The notes beneath the pieces were generated by a model, which was not told where the DNA came from, ran no database searches, and saw only the letters and a list, made by a program, of their open reading frames with translations. Position numbers and translations under genes: made by a program. A stretch of 64,000 nucleotides of DNA from Brachyspira alvinipulli ATCC 51933 (GTDB taxonomy: Bacteria > Spirochaetota > Brachyspiria > Brachyspirales > Brachyspiraceae): NCBI RefSeq assembly GCF_000518245.1, contig NZ_KI912403.1, positions 382,600-446,599 on the forward strand, given 5' to 3'. Positions 7,799 through 61,771 of this stretch are shown here, piece by piece (the first letter of the stretch is position 1; the number at the start of each line of letters is the position of its first letter).

Positions 7799-7900
7799 AT
7801 GAATATTCAATATATTTGTACTAATCTAGGTTTGAATCTACAAGCCAAGCCAAGCCAAGCCAAGCCAAGCCAAGCCAAGCCAAGCCAACTAATACAATAA
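7799..7900 (+). CDS. short leader ORF encoding an AKPSQ pentapeptide repeat
   Basis: A 33-codon ORF starts at ATG 7799 and runs through the CAAGC tandem repeat, which encodes AKPSQ three times, ending at TAA 7898-7900, 25 bases before a terminator hairpin. It has no Shine-Dalgarno, but a promoter -10 seven bases upstream would make it leaderless. With the present nine repeat units the frame closes before the hairpin. With a unit count leaving remainder 2 on division by 3 (8 or 11) the frame stays open through the hairpin and the FkbM ribosome site and ends at TAA 7987-7989, just past the ATG at 7979. I infer a frame-dependent leader rather than a functional peptide. Confidence 0.35.
   Translation: MNIQYICTNLGLNLQAKPSQAKPSQAKPSQLIQ
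7841..7888. repeat. pentanucleotide tandem repeat (CAAGC)9
   Basis: Nine perfect copies of CAAGC (7841-7885) plus a partial CAA. The tract is far richer in G+C than its surroundings and sits between the HxlR regulator and the FkbM methyltransferase gene. Because five is not a multiple of three, each unit gained or lost shifts the frame of the ORF that crosses it. Confidence 0.95.
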
Positions 7901-7925
7901 TCTTTATTTTTAAAAATTACATAAA

Positions 7926-7951
7926 CCTAACAATCAATGTTAGGGTTTTTT
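7926..7951 (+). terminator. intrinsic terminator ahead of the FkbM gene
   Basis: Seven-bp stem CCTAACA / TGTTAGG with a five-base loop, followed by G and six T. It separates the repeat-bearing leader from the FkbM ribosome site (AGGAGG at 7969-7974) and could act as an attenuator for that gene. Confidence 0.7.
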
Positions 7952-7978
7952 ATTTAAAAAATTGTTATAGGAGGAATT

Positions 7979-8047
7979 ATGGATATTAAAACTATTAATA
8001 ATTTTTTATGGTGGGTTCCATTTAAAGAAATAAGAAAATATTTATAA
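7979..8047 (+). pseudogene. 5' end of the FkbM gene cut off by an in-frame TAA
   Basis: ATG 7979 has the strongest ribosome site of this locus (AGGAGG four bases upstream) but only 22 codons (MDIKTINNFLWWVPFKEIRK, then YL) before TAA at 8045-8047. It is in the same frame as the following FkbM reading frame, and the eight codons between the TAA and the TTG at 8072 contain no other stop. From memory, a short WW-x-P-x-K segment often opens surface-glycan enzymes of Brachyspira. I therefore read this as the true N-terminus separated from its body by one nonsense codon. Alternatives: an independent leader peptide, or a sequencing error. Confidence 0.5.
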
Positions 8048-8071
8048 AATGCCGTTGGGGAAAATATTTCT

Positions 8072-8737
8072 TTGAATAGGAATTATTCATTTTTAAAAAA
8101 AATTATAGAAAAAAACAATAATATAAAATTTAAAAGTCAATTTGATCAAGATCTTTTAGCATATTCATATTTTAATGGTAAAAGAAATGATTTTTTTGTA
8201 GATATAGGTGCTCATAATGGAGAATGGATAAATAATACTTATATTTTTGAACAATTAGGTTGGAATGGTATTTGTGTGGAAGCAGATCCTGATAATTTTG
8301 AACTGTTAAAGAAAAATAGGAAATGCTATACATATAATTTTGCAATTGATAGTGAAAATTCTGATAATATAAAATTTATCAAATCTAAAGTGGATGCTTT
8401 AAATGTTTTAGAGAAACATTGTTCAGAAGAACATGCTAAAAGAATAAAATCTGAAGCCAAAATAGATAATTTAGAATATGTGAATATTAAATCTATTACT
8501 TTTAATGATTTAATGAAAAAGTATCATAGTGAAATAAAGCATATAGATTTTTTATCTATTGATATTGAAGGCGGAGAACTAGATATATTAAAAACTATAG
8601 ATTTTTACACTTATACTTTTGATCTTTTAACTATTGAAAATAATGAAAAAGAAAATGTATTAATTGATTTTATGAAAACGAAAGGATATAAAGTATTAAT
8701 CGATATAGGTTGTGATATATTATTTGTAAAAGAATAA
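8072..8737 (+). CDS. FkbM-family SAM-dependent methyltransferase
   Basis: Methyltransferase of the FkbM type, which O-methylates sugars or polyketides; in host-associated bacteria usually a surface-glycan enzyme. From the TTG at 8072 (221 residues): substrate/SAM entry segment QFDQDLLAYSYF, motif I FVDIGAHNGEW (42-52), acidic motif II GICVEADPDNFELL, and the FkbM signature IDFLSIDIEGGELDIL near residue 165. The TTG has only a poor, distant GGGG upstream. The frame is continuous with a 22-codon segment at 7979 apart from one TAA, so the gene may be broken or reinitiated. Upstream lie a CAAGC repeat and an attenuator-like hairpin. Family call is secure, expression state uncertain. Confidence 0.85.
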   Translation: MNRNYSFLKKIIEKNNNIKFKSQFDQDLLAYSYFNGKRNDFFVDIGAHNGEWINNTYIFEQLGWNGICVEADPDNFELLKKNRKCYTYNFAIDSENSDNIKFIKSKVDALNVLEKHCSEEHAKRIKSEAKIDNLEYVNIKSITFNDLMKKYHSEIKHIDFLSIDIEGGELDILKTIDFYTYTFDLLTIENNEKENVLIDFMKTKGYKVLIDIGCDILFVKE

Positions 8738-35573: not shown

Positions 35574-36851
35574 ATGAAAAAAAATAATAAATCCAAAAGA
35601 TCTAAATTAAATAAACAAAAAAGAATAAGACATTATAAAAAAAATAAAAACAATATCAATAATAAAGGATTTATAAATGATGATAATATACAAAAGGCTA
35701 AAGATTTTGCTGGTGAAAATATAGAAAAAGCTAAAGATTTTGCCAATGAAAATATAGAAAAGGCTAAAGATGCAGCAATAAAAAGTTTTGAAAAAGCTAA
35801 AGATTTTACATCAGATAATATAGATAAATTCCAAAAATATTTAGATGAAAAAGATGTTAAAGGAAAAATTAAAAATATAGCTGATACCGGAATAAATACA
35901 ATAAAAGAACATTCAAAAAGAAAATATCCAACTAGAGTCTTAAAATTCTTTCATAGATATTATATGCTTACTTTTATAATATTATTTGTATTATCAATGC
36001 TTATATTCAGAAACATATATTTAAATCATAATATGGAAATAGAAAGAAGATTAAATTATTCTATAACAAATTATTCACCTTCCCTTGAAAATATAATTAT
36101 AGCTAAAGAAGATTATTATACCAATATGTTAATAAGACAAATATCAAGTAATAAAACAGCAACCAATCATATAATATTAAAAAGCTCAAATATTGAAAAT
36201 TTAGAATCTGCATTAAAAAATGTATTTGACAATTACAATAGAAATTTAGAACTGTCAATGAATGAAACTATTAAGTCGTCAAATAATGTAATAAATTTCT
36301 GGTTTGCTTTTTTGACTGTTATAATGATAGTTTTTACTTTAATAAGTATAGTTATAAATAATAATATATTAAAAAAATCAAAACTAAAAATGAAGAAATT
36401 TAATACTTTATATAAAAAACAATTAAAAGTATTAAAGAAAGAAATAAGAAATTTTGAAAATTTAAAAAATAAAAATGAAGAGATAAATAATTTTTATAAT
36501 TTAGGAAATATAGCATTTGATAATAATGAGTATGATGCAGCTATATCCTACTATGATAAAGTTATAGAATTAAGCGGAAATTTTTTTAATGCTTACTATA
36601 ACAGAGCAATATCCTATTATCATACAAATAACTATCAAAAATCTTCTGAAGAATTAATAAAACTATATAGAAATAACAGTATTATAAAAACAAAAACAAT
36701 CAAAGAAATTATAATAAAAAATATTATAGAATTAGCAAATAAAAATATAGAAACAGCCGTAAAATTCTGTAATGATGAAAATATAGATTATAAGTCTTTA
36801 GAAAATGATAAGCAGTCATTATTTAGTAGAATAAAAAATATATTAGGATAA
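35574..36851 (+). CDS. membrane protein with amphipathic KAKDFA repeats and TPR tail
   Basis: A 425-residue protein with no recognised family. The N-terminal 30 residues are very basic. Residues about 38-105 hold several 11-residue amphipathic repeats of the form ENIEKAKDFAN, resembling LEA/apolipoprotein-like helices that lie on membranes. Helix one is at about 128-148; a loop domain follows; helix two is at about 240-262; then a coiled coil (270-305) and TPR units (FYNLGNIAFDNNEYDAAISY, YNRAISYYHTNNYQKSSEEL). The loop would be periplasmic and both ends cytosolic. Ribosome site AAGGG before ATG 35574. Function unknown. Confidence 0.75.
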   Translation: MKKNNKSKRSKLNKQKRIRHYKKNKNNINNKGFINDDNIQKAKDFAGENIEKAKDFANENIEKAKDAAIKSFEKAKDFTSDNIDKFQKYLDEKDVKGKIKNIADTGINTIKEHSKRKYPTRVLKFFHRYYMLTFIILFVLSMLIFRNIYLNHNMEIERRLNYSITNYSPSLENIIIAKEDYYTNMLIRQISSNKTATNHIILKSSNIENLESALKNVFDNYNRNLELSMNETIKSSNNVINFWFAFLTVIMIVFTLISIVINNNILKKSKLKMKKFNTLYKKQLKVLKKEIRNFENLKNKNEEINNFYNLGNIAFDNNEYDAAISYYDKVIELSGNFFNAYYNRAISYYHTNNYQKSSEELIKLYRNNSIIKTKTIKEIIIKNIIELANKNIETAVKFCNDENIDYKSLENDKQSLFSRIKNILG

Positions 36852-58616: not shown

Positions 58617-60149
58617 TTACAAATCTTTATTTAGTTTTTCTATTTTCCAATTACTTATATTCATCAAAGTATCTTTTAAACCAAATTCTGCTATTTGCAA
58701 TACTACTAAATCTATATTATTATCGATAAGATATTTTGTATCAAATACATAACGATGTAAAAATATTGTTTCTTTAAATGAAGAAGCTATATAATTAAAC
58801 ATATGATAACCAAAAGAATCTCTTACAAACAATATGTTCATATTATTTGTGGAATCAGATACAGAATGACAGTAATAAGAATCATATCCTGAATAATAAT
58901 GATTATTTGATCCTTCTATTATCTTAAATTTATTTGTAGTATAATTACTTAACACATATACATCTAAACTATTTTCTTTTAATACTGTAACATTATCAAT
59001 ATCAATAATATTATTAGTAATATCAAGTTCTTTCATTAAAGCCAAATAACCTATATATCCAGATATATTATTCCAATGTCCATCTCCTATATAATATAAT
59101 TCATATTTGTTTTTATATTTCAAAATATCTTTTTTAGGATATACTATTTTTAAATCTGTATTTTTTATTAAATAATTAGTTAATTCATCTATAGAATTAG
59201 TCTCTTTAAATTTTATATAATCAGGGATACCTTCATAATAAATAGACTCTTTATTTGGAGCTATAAATAAAACAAAATCTGTACCATTTTTTTTTAATTC
59301 ATCTCTAAAATTTAACAAATTACTTGAAATTAATTCCAATTCAGATTCACTAAATCTAATTTCTCCAGTTCTATATTTAATAGACTCTAGAGAATACAAA
59401 TTACCATCATCACCATAAATTCTATCTTTATCCCTTTTTTCTTTGAGTATATTCCAGTCTATATATTTTCTTAAATTAATAAAATCATTTCTAAATGGTA
59501 AGTAATCATTAAAATATGCCTCATAATTTTTTGGATAATCAATAAAATTTGAATATATATTTGGATATTCTTTAAATTTTCTATTTTCATAATTATTATG
59601 ATCAAACATATCATAAAATGCAAGATATATAAATTTAGGAAATACAGTAAATAAAATAAATAATGATATTACCAATACATATCCAGTTCTGACATCTTTA
59701 GAATATTTTTTATAATAAAACTCTATTTTGGATAAAAATAAAATTAATATAATAATATTTAAAATAATAAAATATTTAAAAAATTTAAATTTTATTTTTA
59801 AAATATATTTAACATTATCTATTTTTTCGTCCTCAGATATTTTTTGAAAACTAATTAAAGTTCCAAATGGAGTACCAGATTCATCTTTCATTTTTACTTC
59901 TTTTACATATTCCGGCAAACTATTAGTAACTAAATAAACTCCATATATATCACTATTTCTAAATACTTTATCATAATAGCTTATTCTAAAACCATATACA
60001 TAATTATTATGATAAGAAATATTATCATTAAAAGATAATTTATCTAAATATCCAACTCTAGGTTTTGCACCTAATACAGATAAAACTATTAAAGAAATTA
60101 TACATAAAGATAATAAAACTAAATAAACTCTTATCAATATTTTTTTCAT
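58617..60149 (-). CDS. AlgJ/AlgX-like SGNH O-acetyltransferase component
   Basis: A 510-residue membrane-anchored protein with helices at about 7-27, 122-143 and 155-178 and a large domain of the AlgX/AlgJ SGNH type: DFVLFIAPNKESIYY, the DxHW-like motif GDGHWNNISGYIGYLALMKE and the nucleophile motif VRDSFGYHMFNYIA. These proteins transfer acetyl groups to exopolysaccharide in the periplasm, with acyl groups supplied by an MBOAT protein. It starts 12 bases after the MBOAT gene, the expected partner. The Asp/His/Ser set is present, so it is predicted active. Glycan target unknown. Confidence 0.85.
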   Translation of the reverse strand: MKKILIRVYLVLLSLCIISLIVLSVLGAKPRVGYLDKLSFNDNISYHNNYVYGFRISYYDKVFRNSDIYGVYLVTNSLPEYVKEVKMKDESGTPFGTLISFQKISEDEKIDNVKYILKIKFKFFKYFIILNIIILILFLSKIEFYYKKYSKDVRTGYVLVISLFILFTVFPKFIYLAFYDMFDHNNYENRKFKEYPNIYSNFIDYPKNYEAYFNDYLPFRNDFINLRKYIDWNILKEKRDKDRIYGDDGNLYSLESIKYRTGEIRFSESELELISSNLLNFRDELKKNGTDFVLFIAPNKESIYYEGIPDYIKFKETNSIDELTNYLIKNTDLKIVYPKKDILKYKNKYELYYIGDGHWNNISGYIGYLALMKELDITNNIIDIDNVTVLKENSLDVYVLSNYTTNKFKIIEGSNNHYYSGYDSYYCHSVSDSTNNMNILFVRDSFGYHMFNYIASSFKETIFLHRYVFDTKYLIDNNIDLVVLQIAEFGLKDTLMNISNWKIEKLNKDL

Positions 60150-60161
60150 AAAGATTCTGCC

Positions 60162-61574
60162 TTAAAATCTGAAATATATAAATGGATTGTAAGTACCATT
60201 AACTAAATACATAATGCAAATGAATAACAGTACGAATTGAATAACACTCTCTAATATATAAACTCTGCTTGAAAATATAGCTTCCTTAAGCTTTGGAAAT
60301 ATGCTCTGTAATAAACCGCAAAATAAAATACCGAATACAAAACAAACTTGTGTCTGAGGATAGAAGAAATATCTAACTGTAAAAATGCTCTCTTGATAAT
60401 TAAACATTACTTTATATAATTCTAAAGCATGTTTCAAATCATTAGCTCTAAATAATACCCAGCCTAATATAAATACTAATATCACATATATATGATTAAT
60501 AAATTTTAATTTATTTCTCTCTAACAGCTTACCTAAAAATATACGCTCTATTATTAAAAATAATCCATGCCACAAGCCCCACAATATAAAATTAAAACTA
60601 GCTCCATGCCATAAACCTGTAGCAAAAAATACAATAAATAAATTTAAATAAGTAAAATATTTACCTTTCCTATTTCCGCCTAATGGTATATATAAATACT
60701 CCTTAAACCAAGTAGATAAGGATATATGCCATCTCCTCCAAAACTCCTGTACTGACTTTGATATATAAGGATAATTAAAATTCTCTAAAAACTTGAATCC
60801 GAACATATGACCTAATCCAATAGCCATATCTGAATAACCTGAAAAATCATAATATATCTGAAGTGTATACAATATAGCAGCAAGCCATACTAAAACTGTA
60901 CTTAATTCACTAACTGGTTGTTTTAATATTTCATCGCAGGATAAGGCAAACATATTCGCTAATATTACCTTTTTAGATAGTCCGTAAATGAATCTTTTTA
61001 TTCCATAGCTGATATTTTCTAAACTTTCATTTCTATTAATTATCTGACTTTCTATATCATGGTACTTTACTATAGGTCCTGCTATCAATTGAGGAAAAAA
61101 CGATATATATAAAGCTAAATTAAATACATTCTTCTGTGCTTTATTTTGCTCTCTGTAAACATCTATTACATAAGATAATGCCTGAAATGTATAAAAAGAT
61201 ATACCTATAGGAAGAACTATATTTTTTAGACTTATTACTTCTTTGCCTGATATTGAATTAATTATTGATATAGCAAAATCTGTATATTTAAAATAACCTA
61301 ATATAACTAAATTAAGGATTATACAAAAAATTAAATATACTTTCTTCTTTCTTTTATTATTATCTTCAATAGCTTTATCAATTAATAATGCAAATACATA
61401 ATTGATGAGAATAGAAGAAAACATTATTAAAGTATAACTAACTCCACCCCAAGCATAAAAGATAATACTTGCTGCTAAAAGAAGAACATTTCTATATTCT
61501 TTTTTAATTAAATAATATAAACAAAATACTACAGGAAGAAAAAGCCATAAGAAAATCATGGAACTAAATAACAT
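60162..61574 (-). CDS. MBOAT-family O-acyltransferase (AlgI-like)
   Basis: A 470-residue, about 11-helix protein of the AlgI/DltB branch, which passes acyl groups across the inner membrane. Landmarks: start MLFSSMIFLWLFLPVVFCLY, GISFYTFQALSYVIDVYRE, SLSTWFKEYLYIPLGGNRKG with the conserved lysine loop, and GLWHGASFNFILWGLWHG containing the catalytic histidine. GGAG is eight bases before ATG 61574. A (GCGGT)10 repeat and a short upstream ORF with its own ribosome site lie between its promoter and its start. Forms an operon with the AlgJ-like gene. Confidence 0.93.
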   Translation of the reverse strand: MLFSSMIFLWLFLPVVFCLYYLIKKEYRNVLLLAASIIFYAWGGVSYTLIMFSSILINYVFALLIDKAIEDNNKRKKKVYLIFCIILNLVILGYFKYTDFAISIINSISGKEVISLKNIVLPIGISFYTFQALSYVIDVYREQNKAQKNVFNLALYISFFPQLIAGPIVKYHDIESQIINRNESLENISYGIKRFIYGLSKKVILANMFALSCDEILKQPVSELSTVLVWLAAILYTLQIYYDFSGYSDMAIGLGHMFGFKFLENFNYPYISKSVQEFWRRWHISLSTWFKEYLYIPLGGNRKGKYFTYLNLFIVFFATGLWHGASFNFILWGLWHGLFLIIERIFLGKLLERNKLKFINHIYVILVFILGWVLFRANDLKHALELYKVMFNYQESIFTVRYFFYPQTQVCFVFGILFCGLLQSIFPKLKEAIFSSRVYILESVIQFVLLFICIMYLVNGTYNPFIYFRF

Positions 61575-61637
61575 ATAAATAGCTCCGTAATTTTATTTCT
61601 AATTGTTTTAAGAGAATAATATAAAAAGTCTGATATA

Positions 61638-61709
61638 CTACATAATTTGTGCGGTGCGGTGCGGTGCGGTGCGGTGCGGTGCGGTGCGGTGCGGTGCGGT
61701 TACCGGCAT
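61638..61709 (-). CDS. short leader ORF through the GCGGT repeat
   Basis: A 23-codon ORF begins at ATG 61709 with GGAG nine bases upstream and reads MPV then TAPHR-type repeats encoded by the pentamer tract, ending at TAG (61640-61638), 63 bases before the MBOAT start. The other two frames after the repeat are open past the MBOAT ATG, ending at TAG 61566-61564 or slightly further on at TGA. So copy-number changes decide whether the leader ORF stops short or overlaps the MBOAT start. Inferred as a frame-switching leader; peptide function not expected. Confidence 0.4.
   Translation of the reverse strand: MPVTAPHRTAPHRTAPHRTAQIM
61651..61700. repeat. pentanucleotide tandem repeat (GCGGT)10
   Basis: Ten perfect copies of GCGGT (ACCGC on the MBOAT sense strand), about 80% G+C in an A+T-rich setting. 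It lies between the predicted MBOAT promoter and start codon, wholly inside a short ORF. Like the CAAGC tract at 7841, each unit change shifts frame. Confidence 0.97.
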
Positions 61710-61742
61710 AGTATTATTCTCCAATATAGTTTTATTTTCGAT

Positions 61743-61771
61743 ATATTATTATAATTTATAATTAATGTCAA
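61743..61771 (-). promoter_or_regulatory. promoter of the MBOAT-AlgJ operon
   Basis: On the minus strand TTGACA (61771-61766), 17-base spacer, TAATAT (61748-61743). The transcript would include the leader ORF, the repeat and then MBOAT. Confidence 0.5.

Follow-up and report, generated by a model that had tools for sequence, protein, structure and literature searches.

Translational coupling through a masked ribosome site is found in the lysis genes of RNA phages and in ribosomal-protein operons, and gene pairs of the AlgI/AlgX type serve the O-acetylation of polysaccharides. Closer to the locus described here is the pil1 leader of S. gallolyticus, which contains GCAGA repeats and for which a frame-dependent hairpin layout has been shown experimentally (PMC3894217). 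The principle of a pentamer repeat within a leader peptide, the frame of which decides whether ribosomes reach a hairpin, is therefore known from that organism.

The current study concerns a locus of Brachyspira alvinipulli ATCC 51933, in which a pentamer array lies within a short leader ORF upstream of the gene for an MBOAT O-acyltransferase (Table 1). It is encoded on the minus strand of the window, by which we mean the whole stretch of 64,000 nucleotides that was analysed. Slippage-mediated phase variation, acting through translational coupling that depends upon the leader frame, is in our view the best explanation of this locus, and we consider it likely to be correct. A sequence-only reading of the window had already placed a promoter here, together with a leader ORF with its own ribosome site and a ten-unit repeat inside that leader. 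The promoter was confirmed, the coordinates of the leader were exact, and the repeat consists of 10.4 perfect copies. It had further claimed that ten units lead to a leader stop 63 nt short of the MBOAT ATG, and that a unit number of remainder 1 on division by three closes the leader while remainders 2 and 0 leave it open. Both claims were reproduced upon recomputation, as one additional unit moves the stop to +16 and two additional units to +8 (all leader stop positions are counted relative to the A of the MBOAT ATG). Since five is not a multiple of three, every unit gained or lost changes the downstream frame of the leader, and the number of units sets, in silico, whether the leader is short and ends upstream or is long and extends to the hairpin discussed below.

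Table 1. Features of the MBOAT locus and of further pentamer arrays in the genome. Positions refer to the window unless a locus handle is given.
Feature	Position	Strand	Remarks
Sigma-70-type promoter, TTGACA-N17-TAATAT	61743..61771	-	-35 box 61771-61766, -10 box 61748-61743; 10 of 12 matches
Shine-Dalgarno of the leader ORF, GGAG	61719..61722	-	read from the sequence
Leader ORF, present frame	61638..61709	-	ATG 61709-61707, TAG 61640-61638; 10 units, predicted OFF
Pentamer array (ACCGC)10.4	61649..61700	-	perfect copies; every frame without a stop; encodes (TAPHR)n
Alternative leader stops within MBOAT	61556..61566	-	12 units: 61566-61564 (+8); 11 units: 61558-61556 (+16)
Stem-loop over the MBOAT Shine-Dalgarno (GGAG 61586-61583), ATG 61574-61572 in the loop	61552..61594	-	predicted fold
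MBOAT O-acyltransferase, AlgI-like, 470 aa	60162..61574	-	PF03062, E 2.1e-32; proposed controlled gene
AlgX-like SGNH protein, probable partner in the same operon	58617..60149	-	12 nt 3' of MBOAT; PF16822, E 8.7e-6
Sister array (CAAGC)9.6 before an FkbM methyltransferase gene	7841..7888	+	in a leader ORF, ATG 42 nt upstream
Stem-loop resembling an intrinsic terminator, 3' of the CAAGC array and 5' of the FkbM gene	7926..7944	+	crossed by one leader frame; the other two end upstream of it
Two tandem GT8 genes, each with its own GTCAA array and a near-identical leader	L182, G000:C3:55958-57861		one frame ends in an ATGA overlap
DXD-glycosyltransferase-like gene with array	L179		under the Pfam cut-off
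Polytopic membrane protein with array	L198
DNA methyltransferase (N6_N4_Mtase and Mrr-like domain), in-frame CAGAC array at its start	L199, G000:C5:9817-9876		now out of frame
FkbM gene with a CAGAC array in its 3' end, followed by a group 1 glycosyltransferase gene	L200, G000:C1:578709-578743

The putatively controlled gene has the features of AlgI-like MBOAT membership, namely an MBOAT domain and an adjoining AlgX/AlgJ-like partner, the PF16822 match of the latter being slightly under the curated cut-off. Its closest named matches come from a Brachyspira MAG (97%), B. pilosicoli (90%) and B. hampsonii (88%). The array, which is separated from the gene by a spacer of 74 nt, is not a product of chance, because four or more tandem GCGGT units occur nowhere else in the 3.42 Mb searched and a reversed-pattern control yielded none. 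Within the window, arrays of period 4-8 are limited to this one and the CAAGC array of the FkbM locus, and an Rfam search returned no match. Tandem Repeats Finder additionally reported a tandem 66-base (2 x 33) repeat at window positions 35680-35824, its copies about 76-80% alike and its unit lengths multiples of three.

It is evident that the array is a constant feature of this gene within the genus. An MBOAT ortholog of 74-100% identity is encoded in 16 of the 26 Brachyspira genomes searched (B. alvinipulli, G000, included), and all 16 have a pentamer array between the leader start and MBOAT, although related sequences inflate such counts. Repeat number, which the sequence-only reading had proposed to survey in related genomes, ranges from 5 to 16.4 units, with the nearest relative having one unit fewer than B. 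alvinipulli. By comparison, no array of period 4-8 was detected in the flanks of the 74 loci from relatives outside Brachyspira, whose proteins are 45-59% identical. Upstream of the array, the remaining 15 species have a promoter-like match of 10-12 of 12 positions, and most orthologs have a similar purine-rich Shine-Dalgarno for the leader, which is weak in G001 and G019. The unit itself is ACCGC in most species, ATCGC in G003, AGCAC in G013, G014 and G015, ACCGA in G017, CAATA in G001 and AACAG in G019. G003 and G005 share 98% identity over the spacer and the 5' end of MBOAT, and yet their units differ (ATCGC versus ACCGC; L013 versus L016) from one end of the array to the other; the array must have been exchanged in its entirety, presumably through contraction followed by re-expansion. 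What persists across species is the position, the period of five and the freedom from stop codons, rather than the sequence of the unit, and this turnover indicates selection for the period and for stop-free units instead of for a given sequence. The stop-freeness of the units is in itself weak evidence, as 57% of pentamers at this base composition are free of stops. A functional leader peptide was also considered and rejected; the encoded sequence changes together with the unit (TAPHR, IASHR, STAQH, TEPNR, QYNTI, NRTEQ), and the sequence of the peptide is therefore unlikely to matter.

Upstream of MBOAT in G011 (comparison L012/L015/L014), the promoter and leader resemble those of G016 (93%), while the spacer resembles that of G013 (92%). 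This mosaic ancestry on either side of the array suggests that leader cassettes were shuffled or that recombination took place at the array. Moreover, contigs end inside or beside ACCGC arrays in G020 (L190, L191; G020:C9 and C216, base 1) and in G018 (L186, L187), and G020 contains a second leader closely resembling the MBOAT leader. The leader cassette is probably present several times in both of these genomes.

When the fate of the leader is computed per species for all three unit remainders, a consistent pattern emerges. The frame in phase with MBOAT is stopped upstream of the gene in 16 of 16 species, which precludes a leader-MBOAT fusion protein; in G015 this stop lies at -18, so near that it could interfere with the hairpin. 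A second frame, with codons beginning just past the A of the MBOAT ATG, can be read as far as the MBOAT start in all 16 and ends at +16, -2, -5 or +43. In the third frame, the leader reaches +8 in six species, B. alvinipulli among them, and is stopped upstream in the other ten. The earlier claim of an overlap in two of the three frames consequently holds for B. alvinipulli and five other species, but a single frame is what all 16 conserve. An upstream ORF that ends at or overlaps the start of the next gene is a feature of translational coupling, and it is present here, with the open frames stopping at +8, +16, -2, -5 or +43. In dinucleotide-shuffled spacers, the conserved frame is open with a probability ranging from 0.003 (G017, with a spacer of 222 nt) to 0.40 per locus. 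The product for ten representatives is 1e-11, a value that is overstated, since several of the spacers are related, but clear in its direction. The array, the open coupling frame and the closed in-phase frame are each found in 16 of 16 species, and the proposal of a frame-toggling leader coupled to the MBOAT start has gained comparative support in this way. Nine species are predicted to be ON-type and seven OFF-type, assignments that rest upon the assembled copy numbers of one assembly per species. The nearest pair, G000 (10.4 units, OFF) and G020 (9.4 units, ON-type), has spacers that are 97% identical and opposite predicted states.

Such coupling would matter because a predicted hairpin hides the MBOAT ribosome site, an element that the sequence-only reading had missed, as it had the terminator of the FkbM locus. 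In the predicted fold, codons 4-7 (SSM and neighbouring residues) sequester the MBOAT Shine-Dalgarno by pairing (GGAGCTA:TAGTTCC), and the start codon lies in the loop. The stem has 14 pairs and a single mismatch (mfe -13.3 kcal/mol, z -3.0; 1 of 200 shuffles as stable). The mean probability that the Shine-Dalgarno is unpaired does not exceed about 0.01 in 15 of 16 species, compared with a median of 0.55 at 36 other gene starts of the window. The exception is G017 (0.37), which has a weak hairpin and an array decayed to five units. When the UTR is shuffled around a fixed Shine-Dalgarno, an equally stable fold is rare (median fraction about 0.01). Within the larger fold of 208 nt, stability is ordinary (z -0.8) and the hairpin is retained in the centroid. 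From these folds, the downstream Shine-Dalgarno at MBOAT is predicted to be occluded in RNA structure. The 3' arm of the stem is coding sequence, and a tendency towards a paired Shine-Dalgarno is seen at unrelated MBOAT starts too (median unpaired 0.32), so the first codons of the protein account for part of the pairing. Across the alignment, 96% of stem positions are paired and no compensatory double changes were found in the stem, the changes at six pairs being one-sided and wobble-keeping; with one-sided changes alone, covariation neither proves nor excludes the stem. A second MBOAT family of the genus (about 41% identical) offers a further comparison, as AAACC arrays are present in five of the copies examined and missing from eight. 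A different ribosome-site hairpin of equal strength occurs in 5 of 5 copies with an array and in 0 of 8 without, the latter having neither hairpin nor GGAG, although these thirteen copies represent two clades and not thirteen independent events. At the other arrays of the genome, masking of the Shine-Dalgarno is absent from most in local folds, and folds in longer context, made without a control, gave a mixed outcome.

Based upon these features, the locus would function as follows. Slippage would alter the number of ACCGC units within the translated leader ORF. In the ON state, leader ribosomes would traverse the stem-loop that hides the MBOAT Shine-Dalgarno and stop at or just past the start codon, and MBOAT would be translated through unmasking of the site and/or reinitiation; this state would be reached via one conserved frame across species and via two frames in B. 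alvinipulli. In the OFF state, ribosomes would stop before the stem, mostly by tens of bases, the stem-loop would stay closed, and MBOAT, and probably its AlgX-like partner as well, would be little translated. With its ten units, the present sequence is predicted to be OFF. We infer both the rate of slippage and the ON/OFF effect, and the output would be a change in the O-acetylation of a surface glycan.

Several other explanations must be weighed against translational coupling. Transcription attenuation as in S. gallolyticus pil1 would mean that ribosomes on the leader keep an intrinsic or Rho-dependent terminator, located between the array and the gene, from acting. The architecture comes close to that of pil1: a pentamer repeat lies in a leader peptide, and the frame sets whether the leader ends before or at a hairpin. 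In the window's FkbM locus a terminator-like stem-loop sits exactly between the frame stops, a terminator-like hairpin is found at the MBOAT locus of G001, and Rho-dependent polarity is compatible with the sequence. However, the interval from array to MBOAT contains no terminator-like site in the window or in 14 of the 15 other orthologs, which makes attenuation the less likely mechanism at this gene, and we judge it unlikely overall. The classical form of phase variation, in which the leader would be the true N-terminus of MBOAT and the repeat would shift its frame, does exist in the genus, at L199 (DNA methyltransferase) and at L185 (membrane protein). At MBOAT, this reading is contradicted by a stop, found in all 16 species, that closes the MBOAT phase past the array and before the gene, leaving it a negligible probability.

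It is also conceivable that the array is a microsatellite of no regulatory consequence, neutral or related to the assembly, given that pentamer arrays are common in this genome and that copy numbers were taken from single assemblies. Such an array would hardly be expected to keep its position in 16 species despite unit turnover, to occur almost solely at glycan genes or a DNA methyltransferase while always being stop-free on the leader strand, or to be accompanied by conserved frames and a conserved hairpin, and we therefore regard neutrality as very unlikely. Repeats that act on promoter spacing or operator distance are known, for instance at nadA of Neisseria (PMC2791445), and the array might similarly tune expression by its length or by the binding of a factor, through DNA or RNA spacing or a protein, irrespective of frame. 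Yet the array starts about 40 nt 3' of the -10 box and leaves promoter spacing unaltered, its unit changes freely between species, which speaks against a binding site, and its lengths of 25-82 nt across the orthologs include no common one. An effect of this kind seems highly improbable to us.

The MBOAT array is one of at least 12 pentamer arrays in the genome, nearly all of which lie at glycan genes, as judged from whole-genome pattern searches covering units with at least two G/C. A search for other pentamer tracts, also advised by the sequence-only reading, accordingly added at least ten to those at MBOAT and at the FkbM gene of the window. Leader-type loci with an array precede three FkbM methyltransferase genes (window 7841, L180, L192), and the genes at L178 and L181 gave no Pfam match. 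At most leader-type loci, one frame extends to the start of the gene, often with an ATGA overlap (+1), and the remaining ones end shortly past the array. The view that the FkbM locus mirrors that of MBOAT is correct as regards the common layout, but the terminator suggests a different downstream element there. This FkbM gene (7841-8737) seems to be broken at its 5' end: the Shine-Dalgarno-preceded ATG at 7980 opens a frame of only 22 codons with likeness to the N-termini of other FkbM proteins, and from about 8072 onwards the FkbM domain is encoded in a different frame. At L200, the array would alter the C-terminus of FkbM, and a strong terminator-like hairpin precedes the group 1 glycosyltransferase. 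The DNA methyltransferase of L199 is a possible phasevarion regulator. In other species, an ACCGC leader array lies before a small lipoprotein-like gene, with a GCTTAT...ATAAGC-TTTTTT terminator-like hairpin between them (L188, G007:C116), and a 555-aa membrane protein similar to polytopic glycosyltransferases has an in-frame ACCGC array at its N-terminus (L185, G012:C415). The genus seems to join one front end, a leader with a pentamer, to at least two back ends, a masked ribosome site and a terminator. Whether these loci constitute a genus-wide phasome, built from a portable module of promoter, leader ORF and swappable, stop-free pentamer array that at MBOAT genes would operate a translational gate with a hidden ribosome site, is a proposal for which we see the chances as evenly balanced.

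Species of Brachyspira cause swine dysentery as well as human and avian intestinal spirochaetosis, and switching of a surface glycan would bear on the antigenic variability of these gut spirochaetes. In the open-access literature searched, there was no description of repeat-based phase variation in Brachyspira, no paper joining Brachyspira with slipped-strand mispairing, and no mention of phase variation or slippage in the Brachyspira genome papers; MLVA work in subscription journals may mention repeats as typing markers. That literature likewise contained no description of SSR phase variation by a leader-frame-gated masked ribosome site. The locus also provides a natural test of whether leader translation gates a masked ribosome site, with 16 variants that share position and period, differ in their units and fall into three predicted states.

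Among known systems, the AlgI/AlgX pairs share with this locus the order of an MBOAT gene followed by an AlgX-like gene (PF03062, PF16822), but control by a repeat-containing leader is no feature of that family. The SSR contingency loci of Neisseria, Haemophilus, Campylobacter and Helicobacter resemble those of Brachyspira in having slippage-prone repeats at surface-glycan genes and at a DNA methyltransferase. They typically switch the frame of the gene itself or the spacing of its promoter, whereas the MBOAT repeat lies in a separate leader ORF and never within the MBOAT frame. In the lysis genes of RNA phages and the ribosomal-protein operons, an upstream ORF similarly overlaps the start of a gene whose Shine-Dalgarno is hidden in RNA structure, but that ORF is fixed, unlike the MBOAT leader, whose end is set by a mutable repeat. 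The greatest likeness is to pil1/pil3 (PMC3894217), where a short leader ORF, preceded by an RBS of its own, also contains a pentanucleotide array, an out-of-frame change in unit number lengthens the leader, ribosomes reach a hairpin before the surface gene, and that gene is switched on. The pil1 hairpin is an intrinsic terminator, whereas the MBOAT stem-loop is predicted to hide the Shine-Dalgarno of the gene, with the long leader ending at or inside the gene start. Since it lacks a terminator, a defining feature of pil1, the MBOAT locus is not counted as a member of the pil1 type, while the FkbM locus of the window, with its terminator-like stem-loop, matches the pil1 layout. The MBOAT locus differs from pil1 as well in that its gene encodes an O-acyltransferase, its host is a spirochaete, and the genome surrounding it contains at least 12 arrays with many different units.
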